Source: Alcanivorax sp. S71-1-4
GTDB taxonomy: Bacteria; Pseudomonadota; Gammaproteobacteria; Pseudomonadales; Alcanivoracaceae
Assembly: GCF_009846755.1 (NCBI RefSeq)
Contig: NZ_AQOR01000016.1
Coordinates: 1-64,000 of the forward strand
Reading direction: 5' to 3'
Length of the DNA: 64,000 nucleotides
Under the pieces are notes generated by a model. It saw only the letters and a list, made by a program, of their open reading frames with translations. It made no database searches and was not told the origin of the DNA. The translations under genes and the position numbers were made by a program. This document shows positions 6,533 to 19,650 of this stretch, piece by piece. The first letter of the stretch is position 1. Each line of letters begins with the position of its first letter.

Positions 6533-7096
6533 GTGTCACCGCGCGGTGTGATCTTTGATCTCGACGGCACGCTGGTGGATTCGAGACTGGATTTTGCGGC
6601 CATCCGTGCCGCCACCGGCTGCCCGGACGGCGTGGGCCTGATCGAATACGCCGAGGGGTTGGCGCAGGACGACGCCGCGCGCGTGCACCGCATCATTCAC
6701 GAGCACGAAATGGCGGGCGCCCGGGCGGCGACCTGGATACCCGGGGCCGATACCTGGCTCGCGGCCCTGCGCAGCCAGGGCCTGCCCACCGGTATTCTGA
6801 CGCGCAACGCCCGCGTGCCCACGGCGCTGACCCTGTCCCGCCTGGGCATTGATGTGGATGTGGTGCTCACCCGCGAAGACTGCCTGCCGAAACCGGACCC
6901 GGACGGCCTGTTGCGCATTGCCCGGCAGTGGGGCCTGCCCTGCGAGGCGCTGGTGTACGTTGGGGATTTCCGTTACGACATTGAAGCGGCACGGCGTGCC
7001 GGCATGCAGGCATGGTTCTATGACACCGGCCGGCATTCGCACTTTGGTGACGACGCCGACCGGGTGTTCAGGAGTTTCCTGGAACTGGTCCAGTAG
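6533..7096 (+). CDS. HAD-superfamily phosphatase (phosphoglycolate phosphatase-like)
   Basis: A 187-residue HAD hydrolase. Motif I is FDLDGTLVDS with the nucleophile Asp, motif II is ILTRN, motif III is KPDPDGLL and motif IV is VGDFRYDIEAA. The small alpha-helical cap indicates a phosphate-monoester substrate, which is not known. The GTG start lies 4 bases after the helicase stop. The stop codon TAG at 7094-7096 is formed by the first bases of repeat copy 2, so the original C-terminus may have been altered by that insertion. Confidence 0.85.
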   Translation: MSPRGVIFDLDGTLVDSRLDFAAIRAATGCPDGVGLIEYAEGLAQDDAARVHRIIHEHEMAGARAATWIPGADTWLAALRSQGLPTGILTRNARVPTALTLSRLGIDVDVVLTREDCLPKPDPDGLLRIARQWGLPCEALVYVGDFRYDIEAARRAGMQAWFYDTGRHSHFGDDADRVFRSFLELVQ

Positions 7097-7283
7097 GGTG
7101 GGTAGAGCCAAAGGCGAACCCCCCCGGGTCCATGCAGCACACTGCTCGCACAAAAATAGCGAAGCTACCCTCCTCGGCAGAGGGTAGCTTCGATCCTCCG
7201 AAGAGGGCGGTTTCGATATCTTTGCGGGAGTGAATAACCGGCATGGACATGGTGGGTTTCGCCTTTGGCTCTACCCACCCTAC
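7093..7283 (-). repeat. Palindromic TIR element, copy 2 (CCAAAGGCG end variant, inverted core)
   Basis: A 191 bp copy with the core in the opposite orientation to copy 1 (GTGCGAGCAGTG complement at left, GCGGGAGTGAATAA at right). It fills the gap between the converging HAD and phosphofructokinase genes. Its left TAG is the HAD stop codon, and its right end is 4 bases from the phosphofructokinase stop. It carries an extra internal hairpin (GAAGCTACCCTC / GAGGGTAGCTTC) not found in the 167-169 bp copies. Confidence 0.9.
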
Positions 7284-7287
7284 GGCG

Positions 7288-8547
7288 TCAAAGTACGAAT
7301 TTTCCTTTGAGTTTTTTGGCTACTGGCGCCAGTTTCAGGCGGGCGTGCACCGGCATGCCATTCTTGAACGGCATCTCCGCCTCACCCTGGATCAGCGGCA
7401 GCAAGTACGCGCGGGCTTCATCGGTAATCCCGAAGCCGTCCTTACTGATGAAATTGCGCGGCATTTTCTTTTCCACGTTGGCAACATTGGCCAGCGGGGC
7501 TTCACCAATGCTCCAGCTGTATTTTTTACCCTGGCCACGCACGATGGCCGGCATCACGGCGTTCTTGCCCTGCTCGGCAAAGCTGACGGCGGCACGGCCG
7601 ACGGCATACGCCTGCTCCAGGTCGGTGGCTGATGCGAGATGGCGGCCGGAGCGCTGCAGATAATCGGGCACGGCCCAGTGGTATTTATGGCCCAGCTCGT
7701 TTTTCACCAGTTGCGCCAGCACCGGCGCCACGCCGCCGAGCTGTTTGTGGCCGAAGGCATCGGTGCTGCCGGCGTCGGCCAGGAAGGTGCCGTCTTTATA
7801 GCGCGCACCTTCGGACACAGCGATCACACAGTAGCCGTATTTCTTCACCGCCTGCTGTACTTTCTTCAGGAACTTCGCCGGGTCAAAGGCGATTTCCGGG
7901 AACACGATGATGTGCGGGGCGTCGCCTTCCTGTTCCTGCGCCAGGCCGGCCGCCGCGGCAATCCAGCCGGCGTGGCGGCCCATCACTTCCATCACGAACA
8001 CCTTGGTCGAGGTGGCGCACATGGAGACCACGTCCAGGGCCGCTTCGCGGATCGACACGGCGGTGTATTTCGCCACAGAGCCGAAGCCCGGTGAGCAGTC
8101 TGTGATCGGCAGGTCGTTGTCGACGGTTTTCGGTACGTGGATGGCCTGGATCGGGTAGCCCAGGGTCTCGGCCAGTTGCGAGACTTTCAGGCAGGTGTCC
8201 GCAGAGTCGCCACCGCCGTTATAGAAGAAGTAGCCGATGTCATGGGCGCGGAACACGTCGATCAGGCGCTCATACTCGCGGCGGTTGCTCTCCAGGCTCT
8301 TGAGCTTGTAGCGGCAGGAGCCGAAGGCGCCGCCGGGGGTGTGTTTCAGCGCGGCGATGGCGGTTTTCGATTCCTTGCTGGTGTCGATCAGGTCTTCCGT
8401 CAGGGCGCCGATGATGCCGTTACGGCCGGCGTAGACCTTGCCGATCACTTTGCTGTCGCGGGCGGCTTCGATGACACCGGCGGCGGAGGCGTTGATGACG
8501 GCGGTGACACCACCGGACTGGGCGTAAAAAGCATTCTTGCGGGCCAT
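7288..8547 (-). CDS. pfp: 6-phosphofructokinase, pyrophosphate-dependent type
   Basis: A 419-residue cytoplasmic enzyme that phosphorylates fructose 6-phosphate; PPi-using forms work reversibly. It contains PKTVDNDLP, where Lys replaces the Gly of ATP-dependent PFK (PGTIDND); that Lys is a hallmark of PPi-PFK. The nucleotide/PPi loop reads NGGGDSADT instead of GGDGS (ATP) or GGDDS (many PPi forms). The catalytic Asp pair in TVDNDL and the MEVMGRHAGW segment are intact. Donor choice is inferred from these residues. The gene converges with the HAD gene across repeat copy 2. Confidence 0.85.
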   Translation of the reverse strand: MARKNAFYAQSGGVTAVINASAAGVIEAARDSKVIGKVYAGRNGIIGALTEDLIDTSKESKTAIAALKHTPGGAFGSCRYKLKSLESNRREYERLIDVFRAHDIGYFFYNGGGDSADTCLKVSQLAETLGYPIQAIHVPKTVDNDLPITDCSPGFGSVAKYTAVSIREAALDVVSMCATSTKVFVMEVMGRHAGWIAAAAGLAQEQEGDAPHIIVFPEIAFDPAKFLKKVQQAVKKYGYCVIAVSEGARYKDGTFLADAGSTDAFGHKQLGGVAPVLAQLVKNELGHKYHWAVPDYLQRSGRHLASATDLEQAYAVGRAAVSFAEQGKNAVMPAIVRGQGKKYSWSIGEAPLANVANVEKKMPRNFISKDGFGITDEARAYLLPLIQGEAEMPFKNGMPVHARLKLAPVAKKLKGKFVL

Positions 8548-8703: not shown

Positions 8704-9612
8704 TCACGTCTGCGTCAGGTGGCTGATGGCCATGGCCGCCGCCGAGGTCCGGTTCTCCACCCCCAGCTTGCGGAATATCTGCTCCAGGTGCTTGTTCACG
8801 GTGCGCGGGCTGAGCGAGAGGATCTCGCCGATCTCGCGATTGGTCTTGCCCTGGGCGATCCACAGCAGCACCTGCGCCTCACGTTGCGTCAGGTGCAGGG
8901 TTTCGCGCAGCAGCGCCAGCTCGGCCTCGCCGTCGCGTTGCAGCAGCCGGAACAGGTATTCGCCCGGCGCGGGCGTACCAAGAAAACGCAGCCGCAGGCC
9001 GGCGTCACCGAGGGCGCGTTGCTGGCCCCGTTCTGGCGGTTCGCCCAGCCAGTGGCGCAGGTGCTGGGTCATGAAACCGGGATTGAACACCTGCGCCTGC
9101 AGCAGTTGCTCTGCCTGGGGGGTGGCCCAGCGCAGCGCGCCGTGCGCGTCGGTGGCGAACATCAGTTGCCCGGCGCGGTCCAGCGCCGTGCGTGCACTCT
9201 GGGTCAGGCGCGCATTGGCCAGGTGCACGCGGATGCGCGCCACCAGTTCATCCGGGTGCACCGGTTTGGTCAGGTAATCGACGCCGCCGGCGTCAAAGCC
9301 ACGCAGGATGTCGTCGGTGTCCGACAGCCCGGTCATGAAGATCACCGGGATCGGATGCAGCGCCGGTTGCAGTTTTAATTGCCGACAGGTTTCAAAGCCG
9401 TCCATCTCCGGCATCACGGCATCCATCAGGATGATGTCCGGCACCATCTTGTCGGCGATCGACAGCGCCTGGCGGCCTTCCAGCGCCAGCAGGGCGGTCA
9501 GGCCGGCGTTGTCCAGTGCGTGGTGGATCATGCCCAGGGTGTCGGGGGAATCGTCCACCACCAGCACCAGGTCCCGGCGGGCCACGGGATGATCAGACAG
9601 AGGCGGTGTCAT
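8704..9612 (-). CDS. LuxR/NarL-type response regulator with long linker
   Basis: A 302-residue response regulator. The receiver domain spans residues 15-130 with phospho-acceptor Asp64 (ILMDAVMPEMDG) and conserved Lys (YLTKPVHP). A roughly 90-residue linker resembling a PAS-like segment (LMFATDAHGALRWATPQAEQLL) follows, then a LuxR-type helix-turn-helix (LTQREAQVLLWIAQGKTNREI...SPRTVNKHLEQIFRKLGV). Its start lies 20 bp inside the end of the sensor-kinase gene, so the two are translationally coupled. The neighbouring amide/urea operon is its likely target (inference). Confidence 0.9.
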   Translation of the reverse strand: MTPPLSDHPVARRDLVLVVDDSPDTLGMIHHALDNAGLTALLALEGRQALSIADKMVPDIILMDAVMPEMDGFETCRQLKLQPALHPIPVIFMTGLSDTDDILRGFDAGGVDYLTKPVHPDELVARIRVHLANARLTQSARTALDRAGQLMFATDAHGALRWATPQAEQLLQAQVFNPGFMTQHLRHWLGEPPERGQQRALGDAGLRLRFLGTPAPGEYLFRLLQRDGEAELALLRETLHLTQREAQVLLWIAQGKTNREIGEILSLSPRTVNKHLEQIFRKLGVENRTSAAAMAISHLTQT

Positions 9613-12600
9613 GGGGTTGCTCCATTAGCTGGATGATACGGGCGAAATCACAGCGCCCGAGGGCGTCGGCCAGAGCCTGCGACAGGGGCGCGGGGATCAG
9701 CGCCGTGTGCCGTGCCATGGCCTGGCGCAGCGCGGCCAGATGGCCGATCTCGGCCAGCGCCACGAGTTCATCGCGGACGGGCGGCGGTAGCGTGGTGCTG
9801 TCGACACGGGGCGTTGGGGCGTGGGTGTCGTCGTAGCGCCAGTTCAGGGTCAGGTGCCGGTCGAGCAGGGCGCGCAGGGCGCTGAGCCGGTACGGTTTCA
9901 CCAGATAATCGTCGTGCGCACTCTGGCTGCCGGGCAGGGCGTGGCCGCCGGCGTTGGCGGAGACCATGATCACCGGGCCACGGTAACCCCCTTCGCGCAG
10001 CGCCGCCGCCACCTGCCAGCCGTCCATGCCGGGCATGGCGATGTCCAGCAGCACCAGGTGCGGCTGGCTTTGCCGTGCCATGGCCAGGCCGGCGGGGCCG
10101 TCCGGGGCTTCCAGAATGGTGAAGCCGAGCGGCGTCAGCATGTCACTGATCAGGCCGCGATGGGTCGGATCGTCGTCGATCACCAGCAGCGTGCGCGGTG
10201 CACCGTGATAGCCCACCGGGGCCAGGGCCACGGTGGGGCTGGCGCGGTAGGGCAGGCTGGACAACATCAGCGATAACCGGAACTCGCTGCCCTGGCCCGG
10301 TGTGCTCTGTACGCTCAGGTCGCCACCCATGATCTCCGTCAGCAGTCGGGTGATGGTCAGGCCCAGCCCGGTGCCGTGGGTGGCCGGGGTGCCCGCCTTG
10401 CGCACGCGCTCGAACGGCAGAAAGATACGTTCGATGTCTTCCTGTGCGATGCCAACGCCGGTGTCGCGGATGGTGAATTCCGCCACCTGATTGCGATAGC
10501 GGAAATGCAGCGCCACTTCGCCCTGGCGGGTGAACTTGATCGCGTTGCTGAGCAGGTTGATCAGGATCTGGCGCAGCCGTTTTTCGTCGGCGGTGACCAG
10601 CTCCGGCACCGGCGTGGTGCAGACAAACCGAAAGCCGATGCCCTTCTCGCTGGCCTGTAGCCGGAACATGCTGACCAGTTCGTCAATCAATGCGTGGATG
10701 CGCACCTGATTGCGGTCCAGCTCCAGCCGGCCAGCCTCGATCTTGGAAATTTCCAGCAGCCCTTCGATCAGGTCAGCGAGATGGCTGGTGGAGCGGCGGA
10801 TCGCCGCCACGGCATCGTGCAGGTGCGCCGGCACGGCCGGGTCGTGCTCCAGTAATTGGGCATAGCCGAACGCGGCATTCAGCGGCGAGCGCAGTTCGTG
10901 GCTGAGGCCGGTGAGGTAGCGGCTCTTGGCCTGGTTGGCCGCTTCGGCCTGTTCCTTGGCTTTTTGCAGCGCGCGGTCGGTTTTTTCGTGAGCGGCGATT
11001 TCGTCCATCAGCATCGCTGTCTGCCGGCGGGATTCTTCCTGTGCCACCACGCGGCTTTCGTGGGCGAGCACGAACAGCCAGGCGATCACGCCGCTGATGA
11101 TCAGCAACACGGCAAACACTTTCGCCAGTGTCGTCGCCATCAGCGCGCGAACCTGCGCGTCGGCGTCGGGCAACTGGTAATAGATCAGGGTGAGAATCAC
11201 GGCCATCAGTGCCGTGATCAGCACCAGCAGCCCGATAAAATGCCCCATGCGTGAGCGCAGCATGGCCACGCCGCGCTCCGGCAGCCAGCGCGACAGCAGG
11301 GCGACGATCTGTTCCTGCGCGCGCGAGCCGGTTTTGCAACTGTCATTGCAGCGCGCATCCAGCGAACAGCACAGCGAACAGATATGGCCGTTGTAGGCCG
11401 GGCAGAACGCCATGTCCTCCCGGTCAAAGGTGTGTTCGCAGATGCAGCAGCCGGCGCGCAGCGGGATGCTGGCCGGTTGCCGGGCGATGTAATAGCGGCC
11501 ACGCGTGGCGATGGCGATCAGAGGCGCCGCCAGAAACGCCGTGAGCAAGGCAATGAAGGGTGCCAATGCTTTCGCCAGCTCGCCGAACAGACCGCTACTG
11601 GCGAGGATGCCGGTCAGTGACGCCAGTACCATGGCGCCCACGCCGACCGGATTGATGTCGTACAGGTGCGCGCGACGAAACTCGATATGTTTTGGCGACA
11701 GGCCAAGCGGCTTGTTCACCACCAGATCACCCACCAGCGCGCCGATCCAGGCCACCGCCACCAGCGCGTAGGTGCCGAGAATATCCTCGAACACCAGATA
11801 GATGCCGATCTCCATCAGCAGCAGGGCAATCAGCACGTTGAACACCAGCCAGACCACGCGGCCGGGATGGCTGTGCGTCAGCCGCGAGAAAAAATTCGAC
11901 CAGGCGATGGAGCCGGCGTAGGCATTGGTGACGTTGATCTTGAGCTGGCAGAGGATCACGAAGATGCCGGCCAGCGCCAGACTCGCGGCGGGGTTCAGGT
12001 GCAGGTGGTTGAAGGCGACGATATACATGTGCGTCGGGTCGGCGGCGTCCGCGGGCGTCAACCCGTAGCGCAGCGCCAGCACGGCCAGAAAAGAGCCGGC
12101 CGCGATTTTCAGCCCGCCCACCACCGCCCAGCCGGGGCCACCGGCCAGCAGCGCACCCCACCAGCGCAGCCGTTTGCCCGGCGTTTGCTCCGGCAGAAAA
12201 CGCAGAAAATCCACCTGCTCGCCAATCTGGCCGACCAGCGCAAACAGCACCGCGCAGGCCGCACCGAACAGCAGGATATTGAACTGACCGTCGCCGTGGC
12301 CGGGAAAACCGGTCCACTGCGACATGCTGTCCGGTTGCTGGAACAGGATGAACACGAACGGCACCAGTTGCAGCAACAGCCACAGGGGTTGCGTCCATAC
12401 CTGGAAACGGCTGATGAAGGTGATGCCGTGCGTCACCAGCGGAATCACCATCAGTGAACTGACCAGATACCCGATCGACACCGGCAGCCCGAACAGGATT
12501 TGCAGCGCCATCGCCATGATGGCCGCTTCCAGCGCGAAAAAGATAAAGGTGAAGGAGGCGTAGATCAGTGAGGTGAGGGTGGAGCCGAGATAGCCGAAAC

Positions 12601-12925
12601 CGGCGCCACGGGTGAGCAGGTCCACGTCCACACCGAAACGTGCGGCGTAGTAACTGATCGGCAGTGCCAGCATGAAGATCAGCGCACAGACTGTGACCGT
12701 GGCGGCCATGGCGTTGGTAAAGCCATAGCTCAGCGTGATGGCCGCGCCGATGGCTTCCAGCGCCAGAAACGAGATCGCGCCGAGCGCGGTCTGCGACACG
12801 CGCGCGGCGGACCAGCGCCGGGCCTGTTTGGCGGTAAAGCGCAGCGCATAGTCTTCCAGGGTCTGGTTGGCGACCCACTTATTGTAGTTGCGCCGCACCC
12901 GCATGATGCGCTGCTGGGCTGACAT
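9593..12925 (-). CDS. NCS1 transporter-like hybrid sensor histidine kinase
   Basis: A 1110-residue fusion. Residues 1 to about 485 form a multi-helix domain resembling NCS1 cytosine/allantoin permeases (starting RVRRNYNKWVANQTLEDYALRF). A cysteine cluster follows at 493-533 (CCICE...FCPAYNGHICSLCCSL...C...C), probably metal-binding, then two more membrane helices and a coiled coil. The HisKA domain has His676 (GLSHELRSPLN). An HATPase domain (NLLSNAIKF, DTGVGIAQEDIERIF, GTGLGLTI) and a receiver with Asp961 (LLDIAMPGMDGW) complete it. The start is ATG 12925; 13045 is also open. It is divergent from the amide/urea ABC operon, so it probably senses a related nitrogen compound (inference). Confidence 0.88.
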   Translation of the reverse strand: MSAQQRIMRVRRNYNKWVANQTLEDYALRFTAKQARRWSAARVSQTALGAISFLALEAIGAAITLSYGFTNAMAATVTVCALIFMLALPISYYAARFGVDVDLLTRGAGFGYLGSTLTSLIYASFTFIFFALEAAIMAMALQILFGLPVSIGYLVSSLMVIPLVTHGITFISRFQVWTQPLWLLLQLVPFVFILFQQPDSMSQWTGFPGHGDGQFNILLFGAACAVLFALVGQIGEQVDFLRFLPEQTPGKRLRWWGALLAGGPGWAVVGGLKIAAGSFLAVLALRYGLTPADAADPTHMYIVAFNHLHLNPAASLALAGIFVILCQLKINVTNAYAGSIAWSNFFSRLTHSHPGRVVWLVFNVLIALLLMEIGIYLVFEDILGTYALVAVAWIGALVGDLVVNKPLGLSPKHIEFRRAHLYDINPVGVGAMVLASLTGILASSGLFGELAKALAPFIALLTAFLAAPLIAIATRGRYYIARQPASIPLRAGCCICEHTFDREDMAFCPAYNGHICSLCCSLDARCNDSCKTGSRAQEQIVALLSRWLPERGVAMLRSRMGHFIGLLVLITALMAVILTLIYYQLPDADAQVRALMATTLAKVFAVLLIISGVIAWLFVLAHESRVVAQEESRRQTAMLMDEIAAHEKTDRALQKAKEQAEAANQAKSRYLTGLSHELRSPLNAAFGYAQLLEHDPAVPAHLHDAVAAIRRSTSHLADLIEGLLEISKIEAGRLELDRNQVRIHALIDELVSMFRLQASEKGIGFRFVCTTPVPELVTADEKRLRQILINLLSNAIKFTRQGEVALHFRYRNQVAEFTIRDTGVGIAQEDIERIFLPFERVRKAGTPATHGTGLGLTITRLLTEIMGGDLSVQSTPGQGSEFRLSLMLSSLPYRASPTVALAPVGYHGAPRTLLVIDDDPTHRGLISDMLTPLGFTILEAPDGPAGLAMARQSQPHLVLLDIAMPGMDGWQVAAALREGGYRGPVIMVSANAGGHALPGSQSAHDDYLVKPYRLSALRALLDRHLTLNWRYDDTHAPTPRVDSTTLPPPVRDELVALAEIGHLAALRQAMARHTALIPAPLSQALADALGRCDFARIIQLMEQPHDTASV

Positions 12926-13206
12926 GGTGGCTGACCCCGTGTGATGCCGGTCCGTTCGGTCTGGATGGTCCTGGTGCTGCATGGCGCGATCTGCGTTCGA
13001 GTGTGCAGGTTCCTTAAGCAGTTTTCGTGCCGGCATTTCCCCCAAGGCAGGCTAGTCGCGGGCTGGCGGGGCGGGTATGCGTCAAATGACGTAGTCCCCT
13101 GGTGTGTTTCCCGAATGGGGTGGCGGTGCGGGTGTCCGGATACTGACCCTCGAGTATCCCGGAGCAGATGCCGGGGATCGGCCACCGCATGTATGAGGGA
13201 AACGAG
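12926..13206. promoter_or_regulatory. Divergent control region between sensor kinase and urtA-like gene
   Basis: This 281 bp gap must hold promoters for both the two-component pair and the transport operon. The clearest dyad is CGTCA-AA-TGACG at 13080-13091, followed by GTAGTCCCC, which is a candidate site for the LuxR-type regulator. No convincing sigma-70 or sigma-54 boxes stand out. The assignment is inference. Confidence 0.35.
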
Positions 13207-14442
13207 ATGAGCATCACGCAGAATACGCCGCGTCGCTGGGGACGCTGGCTGGCATTACCGGCCCTGGCCCTGGCCAGCACACTGAGCCATGCCGCCGTAC
13301 CGCCGACGTCGGAGGTCAATACCACCGGGCTGGCGGTGACCGACACCACCGTGAAAGTGGGCATCCTGCATTCCATCACCGGCACCATGGCGATCAGCGA
13401 AACCGGTTCCGTGCAGGCAGAGAAACTGGCCATTGAACAGATCAACGCCGCCGGCGGCGTGCTCGGCCGGCAGATCGAATACATCCAGGAAGATGGCGCC
13501 AGTGACTGGCCAACCTTTGCCGAGAAATCGCGCAAGCTGCTGATCAACGACAAGGTGGCGGCGGTGTTCGGCTGCTGGACCTCGGCCTCGCGCAAGGCGG
13601 TGCTGCCGATCTTTGAACAGTACAACGGCATGCTGTACTACCCGACCTTCTATGAAGGCCTGGAGCAGTCACCGAACGTGATCTACACCGGCCAGGAAGC
13701 GACCCAGCAGATCATTGCCGGCATCGACTGGGTCGTGCGCGAGAAAGGCGCCGAGAGCTTCTATCTGCTCGGTTCGGACTACATCTGGCCGCGCACCTCG
13801 AACAAGATCGCCCGCGCGCACATCGAGAGCCTGGGCCTGGAAGTGGTAGGCGAGGATTATTACCCGCTTGGCCATACCCAGTTCAACTCGGTCATCAACC
13901 GTATCCGCCTGAAAAAGCCGGACGTGATCTACGCCATCGTGGTGGGCGGTTCCAACGTGGCGTTTTACCGCCAGTTGCAGGCGGCCGGCTTTGACCTGAC
14001 CCAGGAAAGCCCGCTGCTGCTGACCATCTCCGTGACCGAGGATGAAATTCTCGGCATCGGTGGCCAGAACATCGAAGGCGCCTACGCGGCGATGAAATAT
14101 TTCCAGAGCCTGGACAACCCGAACAACGAGGCGTTCGTTGAAGCGTTCAAAGAGCGCTGGGGCGATGACATCGTGATCGGTGACGTGACCCAGGCGGCGT
14201 ACCTCGGCCCGTGGTTGTGGAAAGCCGCAGTCGAAAAAGCCGGGTCATTCGATATCGACAAGATCCGCGAAGCGTCACCGGGCATTGAGCTGACGACGGC
14301 GCCGGAAGGGTATGTCCGCATCCATGAAAACCATCACCTCTGGTCGAAAACCCGCGTCGGCCGTGCCATGGACAACGGCCAGTACGAAGTGGTGTTCGAA
14401 ACCGACGAACTGATGGAGCCGGACCCGTTCCCGGAGATGTAA
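13207..14442 (+). CDS. urtA: Urea/short-chain amide ABC transporter, periplasmic binding protein
   Basis: A 411-residue type I periplasmic binding protein with a signal peptide (WLALPALALASTLSHA). The mature part reads VKVGILHSITGTMAISE...AIEQINAAGGVLGRQIEY and FGCWTSASRKAVLPIFEQ, as in UrtA/FmdD proteins that capture urea or amides. The start is ATG 13207 after GAGGGAAACGAG; the longer frame from 13168 lacks a secretory N-terminus. It leads an operon of permeases, ATPases and formamidase, so formamide or short amides are at least as likely as urea to be the ligand. Confidence 0.88.
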   Translation: MSITQNTPRRWGRWLALPALALASTLSHAAVPPTSEVNTTGLAVTDTTVKVGILHSITGTMAISETGSVQAEKLAIEQINAAGGVLGRQIEYIQEDGASDWPTFAEKSRKLLINDKVAAVFGCWTSASRKAVLPIFEQYNGMLYYPTFYEGLEQSPNVIYTGQEATQQIIAGIDWVVREKGAESFYLLGSDYIWPRTSNKIARAHIESLGLEVVGEDYYPLGHTQFNSVINRIRLKKPDVIYAIVVGGSNVAFYRQLQAAGFDLTQESPLLLTISVTEDEILGIGGQNIEGAYAAMKYFQSLDNPNNEAFVEAFKERWGDDIVIGDVTQAAYLGPWLWKAAVEKAGSFDIDKIREASPGIELTTAPEGYVRIHENHHLWSKTRVGRAMDNGQYEVVFETDELMEPDPFPEM

Positions 14443-14509
14443 CGCACACCCTCGGGGCTGGTGGCCGCACGCGGCCACCAGCGGGATCGCAGTTGTTGGG
14501 AGCAGGCCA

Positions 14510-15436
14510 ATGTTTGCAGACTATTCCGCCGCAGAACTGACATCGATCTTTGCGATGCAGGGTTTCGCCGGGCTGTCGCTGTTTTCCGTTTTCGTACTGA
14601 TGGCGCTGGGGCTGGCCATCATCTTCGGCCAGATGGGCGTGATCAACATGGCTCACGGCGAGTTCATGATTCTCGGTGCCTACGTCACCTGGCTGACATC
14701 CGGGTTTTTCAGCAGCCACTTGCCGGGGCTGTTTGCCGCGTATTTCCCGGTGGCCATCCTGCTCGCCTTTCTTGCCTCGGCGTTGCTGGGCGGGGCGGTG
14801 GAGTGGTTATTGATCCGGCACCTCTACAAACGCCCGCTGGACACGTTGCTGGCCACCTGGGGCCTGAGCCTGATCCTGCAACAGGCCTACCGTTCGATTT
14901 TCGGTGCGCGGGAAGTGGGTGTGCGCATGCCGGACTGGATGATGGGCTCCTACGCGATCACCGACATGATCGAAGTGCCGATCAACGGCCTGTTCGTGAT
15001 GGGGATTTCACTGCTCACTGCGCTTGGCGTGTACCTGCTGATGTACCGCTCCACCTGGGGGCGCAAAGTGCGCGCGGTGGTGCAGAACCGGCCGATGGCG
15101 GGGGCGGTGGGGATCAATACTCAGCAGGTGGACCGCGTGACCTTTGCGCTCGGTTGCGGCATTGCCGGTATTGCCGGCAGCGCCTTCACCATGATCGGTT
15201 CCACCGGCCCGACGGCGGGGCAGCTCTACATCGTCGATACCTTCCTGGTGGTGGTATTCGGCGGTGCACAGAGCCTGCTGGGCACCATCGCCTCCGCTTT
15301 CACCATTTCGCAGGCGCAATCGACCATGGAATTTTTCCTCAGCGGGTCGATGGCCAAGGTGTACACCTTGCTGGTGGTGGTCGGCATCCTGATGGTGCGT
15401 CCGCAGGGGCTGTTCGCCAGCCGCATCCGGCACTGA
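14510..15436 (+). CDS. urtB: Amide/urea ABC transporter permease, UrtB-like (short form)
   Basis: A 308-residue inner-membrane permease of the LivH/UrtB family, with about eight hydrophobic helices and the LivH-type motifs GLAIIFGQMGVINMAHGEF and GVGINT-like AGAVGINTQQ. Many UrtB proteins carry a long N-terminal extension of some 200 residues; this one has only the permease core. It follows urtA by 67 bp and precedes urtC by 12 bp. It would form the transmembrane channel with UrtC. Confidence 0.9.
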   Translation: MFADYSAAELTSIFAMQGFAGLSLFSVFVLMALGLAIIFGQMGVINMAHGEFMILGAYVTWLTSGFFSSHLPGLFAAYFPVAILLAFLASALLGGAVEWLLIRHLYKRPLDTLLATWGLSLILQQAYRSIFGAREVGVRMPDWMMGSYAITDMIEVPINGLFVMGISLLTALGVYLLMYRSTWGRKVRAVVQNRPMAGAVGINTQQVDRVTFALGCGIAGIAGSAFTMIGSTGPTAGQLYIVDTFLVVVFGGAQSLLGTIASAFTISQAQSTMEFFLSGSMAKVYTLLVVVGILMVRPQGLFASRIRH

Positions 15437-15448
15437 GCGGGGGGCTGA

Positions 15449-16581
15449 ATGATGACAGCATTGCGTAATCTGTTCTCCGGCCGCGAGGTGCTTTATTTCC
15501 TGCTGCTGGCGGTACTGTTGGTGGTGGTTTTGCCGCTGGCACTGGATGCCTTCCGGCTGAACCTGACCGGCAAATACCTGACCTTTGCGTTCGTCGCCCT
15601 CGGGCTGGTGCTGTGCTGGGGCTATGGCGGCGTACTCAGCCTGGGGCAGGGGGTGTTCTTCGGCCTGGGCGGCTACTGCATGGCGATGTTCCTGAAACTG
15701 GAAGCCTCGGACATGGCCAGCACCGCACGCCAGACCACACCGGGCATTCCGGATTTCATGGACTGGAATCAGGTCACCGAACTGCCCTGGTTCTGGGAAC
15801 CCTTCCACAGCCTGACGTTTACTTTGCTGGCGGTGCTGGTGGTGCCGGCGGTGTTCGCCTTCGTGATCGGTTTTGCGATGTTCAAGCGCCGCGTTGGCGG
15901 CGTGTACTTCGCGATCATCACCCAGGCCATCGCCACCATCCTCACCATCCTGATCATCGGCCAGCAAGGCTATACCGGTGGTGCCAACGGCATGACCGAT
16001 CTGCGCACGCTGCTGGGCTGGGATATCCGCACGGATGACGCCAAGCAGATTCTGTACTTCCTGTGCGTGTTCCTGTTGTTGCTGTGCCTGGTGCTGGCGC
16101 ACCTGATCCTGCGCAGCAAATTTGGCCGCATCCTGGTGGCCATGCGTGACCGGGAAGACCGGGTGCGTTTTTCCGGTTATGACGTGTCCGGCTTCAAGAT
16201 TTTCGTGTTCTGCCTGGCCGGTGTGTTTTCGGCCATCGGCGGCGCGATGTTCACGCTCCAGGTCGGTTTCATGTCGCCCTCGTTTGTCGGCATCGTGCCG
16301 TCCATCGAGATGGTGATCTTCTGCGCGGTGGGCGGTCGCCTGTCACTGCTTGGTGCGGTCTATGGCGCGTTGATCGTCAATCTGGCCAAGACCAGTTTCT
16401 CGGAATCCTTTCCGGAGCTGTGGCTGTACGCCATGGGCGCGCTGTTCATCGCCGTGGTGCTGGCGTTCCCGAACGGGCTGGCCGGGCTGTACAGCCGTTA
16501 TCTCGAGCCACTGCTGGACAGGGGCTGGGCGAATGTGCGCAGCCGTGCTGTGGCGGTGCCCCCCGCACAGGAGAAAACCTC

Positions 16582-16585
<4 letters not shown>
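15449..16585 (+). CDS. urtC: Amide/urea ABC transporter permease, UrtC-like
   Basis: A 378-residue LivM/UrtC-type permease. It has about nine hydrophobic helices and the family segments WGYGGVLSLGQGVFFGLGGY and SKFGRILVAMRDREDRVRFSGYD. A second ATG three bases on is an equally possible start. The stop overlaps the next start (ATGA at 16582), which indicates translational coupling to the ATPase gene. Confidence 0.9.
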
Positions 16586-17350
<765 letters not shown>

Positions 17351-17358
<8 letters not shown>

Positions 17359-18040
17359 TATCTCCGGGCTGTGCGTGAGTTACGGCGAAAGCCGCATCAT
17401 CAACGACCTGAACATGCGCATTGGCGAGAACGAGATCGTGGCAATTGTCGGTCGCAACGGCATGGGCAAGACCACGCTGATGAAATCGCTGGTCGGCATG
17501 CACCCGTCCAGTGCCGGCAGTATCCGCCTCGACGAGCGCGACCTGGCGCCGTTGCAGAGTTACCAGCGCGTGCGCGCCGGTATCGGCTTTGTGCCGCAGG
17601 GGCGGATGATCTTTTCCACCATGACAGTGCGCGAGAATATCGAAACCGGCCTCTCCGCCAGTGGTGAAAAACGCATCCCCGAACACCTGTACGAACTGTT
17701 CCCGGTATTGAAGGACATGCGCAGCCGGCGCGGAGGCAACCTCTCCGGCGGCCAGCAACAGCAACTGGCCATAGCCCGCGCGCTCGCCGGGCGGCCGAAA
17801 GTGCTGCTGCTGGACGAGCCCACCGAAGGTATCCAGCCCTCCATCATCCATGAGCTGGCGCGCACGCTGCGCCGTATCCGGGATGAGCACGGCCTCTCCA
17901 TCATCGTCTCCGAGCAGGTGCTCAGCTTCGTGCTGGATGTGGCGGACCGTGTGCTGGTGATGGAGAAAGGCGTACTGGTGCACGAGGCCGAACGTGCGGC
18001 CATCGATGAACAGGTCATTGCCGGCTTCCTGTCGGTATGA
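17351..18040 (+). CDS. urtE: Amide/urea ABC transporter ATP-binding protein, UrtE-like
   Basis: A 229-residue LivF/UrtE-type ATPase. Walker A is GRNGMGKTT, the signature is LSGGQQQQLAIARAL, Walker B is VLLLDEPTEGIQPS, and the segment GIGFVPQGRMIFSTMTVRENI is characteristic. The chosen start, ATG 17351, lies inside the end of urtD (8 bp overlap). It pairs with UrtD to power uptake. Confidence 0.93.
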
Positions 18041-18072: not shown

Positions 18073-19305
18073 ATGGCGGAAACACTGATCAAGGTCGACC
18101 TGAACAAATCCCCGTACGACAACGACGGCGTGCACAATCGCTGGCACCCGGATATTCCCATGGCAGTGATGGTCAAGCCGGGCGACGACTTTATTCTCGA
18201 ATGCCACGACTGGACCGGCGGCCAGATCAGGAACGATGACAGCGCCGAGGACGTCCGCGATGTGGACCTGTCGCAAGTGCATTTCCTGACCGGGCCCGTG
18301 GGCGTGGAAGGCGCCGAGCCGGGCGATCTGCTGGTGGTGGATATCCTGGATATCGGTGCCTTCGACGAAAGCCAGTGGGGTTTCAACGGCTTTTTCTCGA
18401 AGCAGAACGGTGGCGGCTTTCTCACCGATCATTTCCCGGAAGCGCAGAAATCCATCTGGGATTTCAATGGCATGTTCACCAAGTCGCGGCATATTCCCGG
18501 CGTGGAGTTTGCCGGCCTGATCCACCCCGGCCTGATCGGCTGCCTGCCGTCCAAGGGCATGCTGGACGAATGGAACACCCGTGAAAAAGAACTCTACGAC
18601 ACCGAGCCGGATCGCGTGCCCGGCCTGGCCAACCTGCCGTATGCCGACACCGCACACCTGGGCAAGATGAGCAAGGACAAGGTGCCGACCGCCGCTGCCG
18701 AGGCGGCGCGCACCGTGCCGCCGCGTGAGCATGGCGGCAACTGCGACATCAAGGATCTGTCGCGTGGCTCGCAGGTCTATTTCCCGGTCTACGTCAAAGA
18801 CGCCGGCCTGTCGGTAGGGGATCTGCACTTCAGCCAGGGCGACGGCGAAATCACCTTCTGTGGCGCCATCGAGATGGCCGGCTGGATTCACCTGCGCGTG
18901 AACCTGATCAAGGGCGGCATGCAGAAATACGGCATCAAGAACCCGATTTTCAAACCGAGCAAGATGGCGCCGAAGTACGATGATTATCTGATCTTCGAAG
19001 GCATCTCGGTGGATGAAGACGGCAAGCAGCACTACCTGGATGTGCACATCGCCTACCGCCAGGCGTGCCTGAACGCGATCGAGTACCTGACCAAATTCGG
19101 CTACACCCGTGCCCAGGCCTATTCTCTGCTCGGCTGTGCGCCGGTACAGGGGCATATCAGCGGTGTTGTGGATGTCCCCAATGCCTGCGCCACCCTGTGG
19201 CTGCCCACCGATATTTTCGAATTCGATATCAAGCCGAATGCCGATGGTCCGGTGAAACACGTCAAGGGCGGGGTGGACCTGCCGCTGGCGCCGGACAAAA
19301 AATAA
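18073..19305 (+). CDS. fmdA: Formamidase
   Basis: A 410-residue member of the acetamidase/formamidase family, which hydrolyses formamide to formate and ammonia. Family segments include HNRWHPDIP, GDDFILECHDWTGGQI, GPVGVEGAEPGDLLVV and GYTRAQAYSLLGCAP. The strong ribosome site AAGGAGAAC lies 32 bp after urtE, so the enzyme is made with the transporter: the operon imports an amide and cleaves it for nitrogen. Length and sequence fit FmdA of methylotrophs closely. Confidence 0.95.
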   Translation: MAETLIKVDLNKSPYDNDGVHNRWHPDIPMAVMVKPGDDFILECHDWTGGQIRNDDSAEDVRDVDLSQVHFLTGPVGVEGAEPGDLLVVDILDIGAFDESQWGFNGFFSKQNGGGFLTDHFPEAQKSIWDFNGMFTKSRHIPGVEFAGLIHPGLIGCLPSKGMLDEWNTREKELYDTEPDRVPGLANLPYADTAHLGKMSKDKVPTAAAEAARTVPPREHGGNCDIKDLSRGSQVYFPVYVKDAGLSVGDLHFSQGDGEITFCGAIEMAGWIHLRVNLIKGGMQKYGIKNPIFKPSKMAPKYDDYLIFEGISVDEDGKQHYLDVHIAYRQACLNAIEYLTKFGYTRAQAYSLLGCAPVQGHISGVVDVPNACATLWLPTDIFEFDIKPNADGPVKHVKGGVDLPLAPDKK

Positions 19306-19317
19306 GGGAGCCCCACC

Positions 19318-19650
19318 ATGCCACTGTATGACTACAAATGCCCGCAACACGGCCTGTTCCATGAACTGGTGGCCATGGACTGCGCTGGCGACAGCCATGC
19401 CTGCCCGCACTGCGGCACGCTGTCGCCGCGTGTGCTGCTGGTGGCGCCGACCCTGCTGGACATGTCGCCGGTGAAACGCCAGGCGATTGAACGCAACGAG
19501 CGGGCGCGGCATGAGCCGCGGCATGGCAACCAGGTTTCCGAGCATGAACAGGGTTGCTGCCACCATGCCCGGCACAAGCCGAAAGTGTTCTACACCGCCG
19601 AAGGCAACAAGATGTTCCCCTCCGCACGCCCCTGGATGATCAGTCACTGA
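19318..19650 (+). CDS. fmdB: FmdB family zinc-ribbon protein
   Basis: A 110-residue protein beginning MPLYDYKCPQHG, with a second pair CPHCG about 20 residues later: the FmdB zinc ribbon. A further Cys/His-rich segment (HEQGCCHHARH) lies near the C-terminus. FmdB is described as a regulator of formamidase in Methylophilus; whether that holds here is unknown. It is the last gene of the operon and is followed directly by a terminator. Confidence 0.9.
   Translation: MPLYDYKCPQHGLFHELVAMDCAGDSHACPHCGTLSPRVLLVAPTLLDMSPVKRQAIERNERARHEPRHGNQVSEHEQGCCHHARHKPKVFYTAEGNKMFPSARPWMISH

Follow-up and report, generated by a model that had tools for sequence, protein, structure and literature searches.

What does a histidine kinase perceive when its N-terminal half is shaped like a permease? 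The question is raised by a 64,000-nucleotide stretch of Alcanivorax sp. S71-1-4 (contig NZ_AQOR01000016.1, positions 1 to 64,000; hereafter the window), in which a hybrid sensor kinase and a LuxR-type response regulator are encoded divergently from a urtABCDE-fmdAB operon. Our answer, to which we assign a probability of roughly 0.7, is that the two proteins make up a two-component system of the transceptor type whose ligand is urea and/or short-chain amides (formamide, acetamide). It rests on domain architecture, fold, synteny, co-occurrence with FmdA, a palindrome and conserved site residues, all established computationally. An earlier sequence-only reading of this DNA had proposed that a transporter fold serves as the sensor and that the kinase controls the divergent amide/urea operon; both proposals are supported here, the second by conserved synteny together with a conserved palindrome. 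The kinase and regulator genes are arranged as follows.

9593 to 12925, minus strand: NCS1-type hybrid sensor histidine kinase, preferred start ATG at 12925
11486 to 12913, minus strand: NCS1-fold sensory domain, kinase residues 45-520 (AlphaFold model, PDB search, profile-profile match)
11336 to 11449, minus strand: eight-cysteine module (C533, C536, C548, C556, C559, C560, C566, C570)
10730 to 10930, minus strand: HisKA domain with His716, residues 706-772 (Pfam)
10262 to 10588, minus strand: HATPase_c domain of the kinase, residues 820-928 (Pfam)
9863 to 10186, minus strand: kinase receiver domain with Asp1001, residues 954-1061 (Pfam)
8704 to 9612, minus strand: LuxR-type response regulator, receiver plus LuxR/GerE helix-turn-helix (Pfam)

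With HisKA, HATPase_c and receiver domains and their conserved His and Asp, the protein is a hybrid kinase, and the Pfam domains follow the permease-like region in the order given by the sequence-only reading. The regulator, a receiver joined to a GerE helix-turn-helix, is of the NarL/FixJ type. Its predicted coupling to the kinase is supported; the two open reading frames overlap by 20 bases (9593-9612, stop codon included), and a LuxR-type regulator also adjoins the sensor in most of the relatives tabulated. A TTG at 13045 offers an alternative kinase start (reading frame 9593-13045, minus strand), which we judged less likely than the ATG because conservation in the kinase alignment starts at about residue 46. 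When the whole kinase was compared with NCBIfam, the best 25 of 139 matches all lay within the kinase/receiver half.

The N-terminal domain of about 480 residues has an NCS1 fold of the LeuT type according to an AlphaFold model and structure searches, in agreement with the NCS1-like domain of about 485 residues proposed earlier. The model (residues 41-700, that is 660 residues, from 68 sequences; predicted local distance difference test score 89.9, predicted template modelling score 0.89) is closest, among the PDB chains compared, to CodB (Z 36.2, root-mean-square deviation (rmsd) 3.1, 397 residues aligned). Mhp1 chains scored Z 29.6, 27.9 and 27.3 (rmsd 4.0, 430-437 residues aligned; 4d1a, Z 29.6 over 437), and the top ranks of Foldseek were the identical NCS1 entries, CodB and Mhp1. 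The best non-NCS1 chain was an amino-acid transporter (Z 24.8 over 373 residues, rmsd 4.3), and the SLC5-type chains 5nva, 9vim and 8j74 scored 22.9-23.2, under the 27.3-36.2 of the NCS1 chains; the idea of a simple CbrA relative was therefore rejected, the fold being different. Profile-profile comparison of the sensory domain with seven NCS1 permeases gave a probability of 97%, and L033, a stand-alone relative with 29% identity, itself matches the NCS1 model PF02133. The sensory domain alone yielded no transporter match in Pfam and PDB sequence searches, nor in a PDB profile search, and a PDB search with L033 returned a single weak match, to an unrelated enzyme.

If the fold is that of a transporter, does the sensor still carry the substrate site of one? 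Three positions matter here.

12755 to 12757, minus strand: Glu97 in transmembrane helix 1 (TM1), Glu in all examined sensors and Phe or Gln in stand-alone permeases
12527 to 12529, minus strand: Glu173, invariant, aligned to the Mhp1 substrate residue Gln121
11939 to 11941, minus strand: Lys369, invariant, aligned to Mhp1 Ser312

In Mhp1, Trp117, Gln121 and Asn318 touch the substrate, as described in PMC4195764. The Trp117 position in TM3, whose Trp stacks on the substrate in NCS1 transporters, is Trp in 7/7 aligned NCS1 permeases and Phe, or Leu, in 133/133 sensors; Gln121 falls on Glu173 (two MAFFT modes and hhalign agree), and Asn318 pairs with Asn374 in hhalign and in one of the two MAFFT modes but not in the second. 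The TM8 pair Ser312-Thr313, which is part of the sodium site of Mhp1, is occupied by Lys369-Ile370, and the NCS1 Ser/Thr pair is not present in the sensor; the Lys at this position suggests that the sensor may be independent of sodium. Mhp1 and CodB share with the sensor the fold and the FG..G and D(F/Y)xRF-type stretches, whereas Lys-Ile for the TM8 pair, Phe/Leu for the TM3 Trp and the fused outputs set the sensor apart. E97, E173, K369, N371 and N374 do not vary across the 133 sensors compared (a set that excludes L043, L096, L098, L202, L203 and L204), and mean pairwise identity is 0.64 in the sensory domain versus 0.43-0.57 in the linker, kinase and receiver. We consequently rejected a functionless degenerate transporter, since the aligned site and the cysteine module are among the most conserved regions. 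The earlier suggestion of a ligand of the usual NCS1 type finds no support: Trp117 and Gln121 are replaced by Phe (or Leu) and Glu, and gene neighbours and stand-alone relatives indicate urea or short amides instead. Sensors of the formamidase and urease types have like site residues and differ at one weak separating position outside the aligned site, so preference for urea or formamide cannot be read from sequence.

The neighbours are the second line of evidence. The divergent operon of the window consists of the following genes.

13207 to 14442, plus strand: urtA, urea/amide-binding protein (TIGRFAM; mechanical start 13168, frame confirmed from the ATG at 13207)
14510 to 15436, plus strand: urtB (TIGRFAM cut-off passed)
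15449 to 16585, plus strand: urtC (TIGRFAM cut-off passed)
16420 to 17358, plus strand: urtD (mechanical open reading frame; TIGRFAM match from residue 62, near 16603)
17291 to 18040, plus strand: urtE (TIGRFAM cut-off passed)
18073 to 19305, plus strand: fmdA, formamidase (above the NF045496 cut-off)
19318 to 19650, plus strand: fmdB, zinc-ribbon protein (above the FmdB zinc ribbon cut-off)

UrtA, UrtB, UrtC, UrtD, UrtE and FmdA of the window all score above curated cut-offs, which confirms the operon as it had been named from sequence. To what extent this arrangement is general was followed in three samples: the 80 top-ranking relatives among at least 587 from GTDB genomes, 398 genomes spread over the phylum of the window (taken as Pseudomonadota), and 369 genomes spread over its class, where a stand-alone permease served as the query (17 matches; the fetched loci omit the G000 and G075 copies). 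Among the 80 relatives, urt, fmdA or urease genes occur in the fetched DNA of 71; of the remaining nine, all except L113 begin no more than 1.6 kb from the upstream end of their locus. In the phylum sample, 54 of 398 genomes gave a match and 52 a clear sensor (the matches of the other two, G246 and G288, are weak or fragmentary), the clear sensors amounting to 57 copies including that of the window; the other 56 were all fetched. Within about 9 kb of 54 of these 56 lie urt, formamidase and/or urease genes (fmdA and urt at 35, urease and urt at 7, urease at 5, urt only at 5, fmdA only at 2), and both copies without amide/urea genes sit on short contigs. L202 and L204 were fetched with this set yet are not sensors, and the 94-residue G288 fragment is not among the fetched copies. 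FmdA, in turn, exceeds its cut-off in 33 genomes from a spread of 339, of which 32 also carry the sensor (the exception is G168).

The ligand can also be approached through stand-alone relatives, which lack a kinase (43-46% identity to the domain of the window in the three measured, L261, L262 and L263). They are currently labelled as allantoin permease, cytosine permease or hypothetical, labels without family support at the loci compared (no Pfam match for L261 and L262, no NCBIfam match for L263 and L275). We examined ten such loci, eight drawn from 18 plasmid records and two from the class sample, and in 8/10 a urease, formamidase or amidase adjoins the permease: urease in Acinetobacter L263 (6950-8554), Klebsiella L264 (6941-8548) and L274; formamidase in Moraxella L265 (6914-8557), Tsukamurella L266 (6947-8635), Methylovirgula L267 and L275; and an aliphatic amidase in Arthrobacter L268 (6932-8608). 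L264, a 5.4-Mb record labelled as a plasmid, is probably a chromosome because it contains rpoD. At L267 and L275 the permease adjoins the sensor and the urtABCDE operon was not found, as if the permease stood in for the ATP-binding cassette importer. All ten permeases retain F169, E173 and the TM8 KIN motif, with Phe or Gln at E97, and in a tree eight of them form a clade apart from the sensors (support 0.994), while L267 and L275 branch beside the sensors. The stand-alone relatives beside urease, formamidase or amidase genes are a probable family of urea/short-amide permeases. Because of the gene neighbours and of these relatives, we take urea and/or short amides as the most likely ligand of the sensor, in preference to the substrates usual for NCS1 proteins. 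Genes for CN-hydrolases of the aliphatic amidase type accompany the loci L037 (3784-4851), L267, L268 and L275, which suggests acetamide as a further substrate. A distant stand-alone NCS1 permease is followed at L202 (about 9001-14829) by a CN-hydrolase, a UrtA-type binding protein and an IclR regulator, and at L262 (4920-8885) the actinobacterial permease lies beside biotin-synthesis-like genes (radical SAM-BATS, class III and class I/II aminotransferases).

How might the regulator find its target? The divergent intergenic regions contain a recurring palindrome, TACGTCA-NN-TGACGTA, which is found in the window as follows.

13078 to 13093, no strand assigned: palindromic candidate operator TGCGTCAAATGACGTA, centre about 121 bases upstream of the urtA ATG at 13207

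With an in-frame urtA query, urtA was divergent within 1.2 kb in 116 of 155 loci, and with up to 3 mismatches in 14 positions the palindrome occurs in 73/116 divergent regions versus 24/2320 shuffled regions, the shuffles being first-order Markov and the loci non-independent (related species, and some loci of one species in two sets; the 73 sites represent 70 distinct contexts). For 63 of these 73 the distance to the estimated start of urtA is 98-164 bases, and other segments of the same loci, with rough intergenic bounds, contain the palindrome in 8/504 cases. Across the 4.18-Mb host genome the window site is the only one with at most one mismatch, and two-mismatch sites are no commoner than those of a reversed control pattern. 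The palindrome tracks the target gene (urtA or fmdA), also when the sensor lies apart: at L189, L192, L194 and L198, with urtA 2-7 kb from the sensor, it lies near the urtA start and not near the sensor; at L275 it separates the sensor from a permease-fmdA-fmdB-amiE operon; and at L283 it lies 105 bases upstream of a detached fmdA. It is the putative binding site of the LuxR-type regulator.

Between fold and kinase lies the cysteine module, whose eight listed cysteines are retained in 102/103 aligned rows, the window included; the sole exception, L098, is a 204-residue fragment that does not reach the region. The nine-Cys/His cluster of the sequence-only reading does contain nine cysteines, but only eight are conserved, the ninth, C534, being variable. 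A profile of the module, with at most 17 candidates scored per genome, recovered over the 398 genomes the 57 sensor copies in 52 genomes plus one weak 22-residue match. The region is predicted to form four short strands and one short helix, and the four-helix bundle of STAC is not present. The isolated module gave only weak zinc-finger matches in structure searches with Foldseek and VIA (Z up to 4.1, Foldseek E no lower than 0.23), and the treble clef PF23550 matched 2/25 module members (best E 1.5e-4), so that no fold, whether of the treble-clef, RING or FYVE type, is named. The permeases L263, L264, L265 and L274 retain C533, C536, C556 and C559; because the same other four cysteines vanish together in all of them, two structural four-Cys metal sites would be the simplest reading of the pattern. 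L267 and L275 retain all eight, and L262, L266 and L268 one or two. Given its position, the module may couple the sensory domain to the kinase, in analogy with the role proposed for STAC in CbrA in PMC13022988.

Collectively, we propose a mechanism in which the NCS1-fold domain would hold the amide group of urea or a short amide in its central site and would shift conformation upon binding, having itself presumably lost transport. The eight-Cys module beneath the membrane and the transmembrane/coiled-coil segment that follows would relay this change to the kinase, and phosphotransfer would lead to a phosphorylated LuxR-type regulator. The regulator would then bind the palindrome TACGTCA-NN-TGACGTA, some 120 bases before urtA, and boost transcription of urtABCDE-fmdAB, whose products would import urea or amide and hydrolyse it to ammonia, the signal thus acting as induction.

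Several observations weigh against this account. Pfam PF02133 does not match the sensory domain at E up to 10, although by the structural model the domain belongs to the NCS1 fold. In the class sample, urt, fmdA or urease genes appear at just 8/16 sensor-bearing loci (of the eight without, L289 and L290 end within 1.6 kb on the usual urt side), and L276, L277, L278 and L113 (21.5 kb) have no urt, fmd or urease genes in their fetched DNA; the neighbourhood of homologues, on which the operon link was to be judged, therefore fits amide/urea use in 54/56 phylum-sample copies but not at these loci. Streptomyces L261 and Arthrobacter L262 show no amide or urea genes (2/10 stand-alone loci), and the permease neighbourhoods cover 8 of the 18 plasmid records. 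The palindrome was not found at up to 3 mismatches in 43/116 divergent regions, nor anywhere in the fetched DNA of the urease-type loci L105, L173, L178, L179, L184, L186 and L190. Finally, the shared neighbours could instead reflect ammonium or nitrogen status.

That last possibility, a system responsive to ammonium or to nitrogen limitation whose NCS1 domain would serve as a flux meter or survive as a structural relic, is unlikely. In its favour, formamidase and urease each release ammonia. Ammonia also represses the fmd cluster of Methylophilus, as stated in PMC10781810; yet the NCS1 domain is more conserved than linker, kinase and receiver, its aligned site residues are nearly invariant, and general nitrogen control has no need of a private, single-copy operator. 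We consider it quite improbable that the domain senses a classical substrate (cytosine, allantoin, hydantoin or a purine) as a general cue of organic nitrogen, with the amide operon as one output. The CodB/Mhp1 fold and the allantoin or cytosine labels of several stand-alone relatives would be expected from such a sensor, but those labels gained no family support from Pfam (L261, L262) or NCBIfam (L263, L275), the Trp117 and Gln121 positions are changed in the sensors, and the neighbours are urease, formamidase, amidase and urt. Equally doubtful is a cysteine module that acts as the sensor, as a redox or metal switch (zinc or nickel, for example). Eight invariant cysteines are compatible with it, and urease requires nickel; against this, the joint loss of four cysteines in L263, L264, L265 and L274 resembles the removal of a structural metal site, and a full or reduced module is also present on stand-alone permeases. 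Metal or redox sensing, which the sequence-only reading had raised, is conceivable, but two structural metal sites fit the pattern better.

Where does the proposed amide/urea transceptor stand among known systems? AmiC-AmiR provides amide-responsive control of an amidase operon through a soluble amide-binding regulator and, unlike the system in the window, is not known to have a transporter-fold sensor. The SLC5-STAC kinases CbrA, CrbS and RpuS likewise fuse a secondary-transporter fold to a histidine kinase (for CbrA, as described in PMC13022988), and CrbS and RpuS are described as also governing utilisation or uptake genes; they combine an SLC5 fold with a four-helix STAC, whereas the window sensor has an NCS1 fold, an eight-Cys module and a urea/amide context. 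In Ks-Amt5, too, a transporter fold specific for a nitrogen compound has become the sensor of a kinase: transport is lost and binding signals. It differs in its Amt fold and its ligand, and the available part of PMC5764959 mentions no cysteine module. Alongside the SLC5-STAC (CbrA) and Amt kinases, the window sensor represents a new family of sensors derived from transporters. As for the operon, fmdCABDEF of Methylophilus methylotrophus likewise comprises formamidase, a putative regulator and binding-protein-dependent amide/urea uptake, and is described as inducible by formamide and urea (PMC10781810, a review in which the word sensor does not occur). A Urt-like cluster of Bradyrhizobium beside formamidase and amidase is judged in PMC3098086 to carry amides, not urea, and P. 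veronii with such a cluster is reported in PMC13209695 to grow on formamide and acetamide. In M. smegmatis, nitrogen starvation is reported in PMC4222082 to induce both msmeg_3402, labelled 'cytosine permease' and a candidate member of the stand-alone permease family, and the formamidase gene msmeg_3403. A figure legend of the genome paper PMC13296017 names kinase and LuxR genes beside urtABCDE and notes no transporter domain. No open-licence paper that we found has an NCS1-histidine kinase as its topic, judged by title and abstract start, and the NCS1-fold sensor kinase thus seems previously undescribed though common in its phylum.

Other fusions raise the question of whether the sensory part is a unit in its own right. 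L277 (6922-10596) combines the NCS1-Cys part with PAS-GGDEF-EAL in one protein, by which a transporter-shaped domain may feed into cyclic-di-GMP signalling; L278 joins it to PAS-PAS-HisKA-HATPase-receiver and L276 to HisKA-HATPase. E97 is Glu in every sensor examined and in no stand-alone permease examined. We regard it as an even bet that an NCS1-fold urea/amide receptor with its eight-Cys coupler constitutes a new sensory unit with several outputs (hybrid kinase, plain kinase, PAS-GGDEF-EAL), that it shares ancestry with misannotated, sodium-independent urea/amide permeases (Lys/Arg for the sodium-site Ser), and that E97 in TM1 is one of the transporter-to-receptor changes. A RuBisCO large-chain gene lies near the L277 fusion. 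If our account is true, the short list of kinase sensors derived from transporters gains one more fold. The stand-alone relatives, at present annotated as allantoin or cytosine permease, are proposed as a bacterial family of urea/amide permeases, and the formamidase/amide uptake operons of bacteria are proposed to have a regulator and an operator of their own. Since L275 and L267 each encode a permease and a sensor of one family next to each other, the change from transporter to receptor becomes testable residue by residue.

The sensory domain also travels on plasmids: 525 plasmid records match it, 342 of them from Klebsiella, and at least two (H106, H107) carry the stand-alone permease. On L205, a Klebsiella pneumoniae plasmid of the pKPN3-307 type B, the sensor cassette resides on a plasmid of an epidemic lineage; its sensor (12001-15381; domain 61% identical to the window's) is accompanied by a regulator-like match (15365-16243), and the record holds the operator with one mismatch. 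PMC5506382 and PMC13060141, in which AmiF and a 'urea ABC transport system' are described for pKPN-307 plasmids, do not use the word 'kinase' in their main texts; the same cassette lies on Klebsiella plasmids that these papers discuss for urinary fitness.

Two further observations concern the surroundings of the system. L200 and L201 encode shorter sensors of 894-899 residues with fmdA/fmdB downstream, where the LuxR regulator was not found; L200 contains a receiver-HisKA-HATPase reading frame at 6639-7985. In the window, a gene for a diphosphate-dependent phosphofructokinase (7288-8547) adjoins the regulator, and L037, L038 and L039 have such a gene (81-83% identical) close to their copy of the system.

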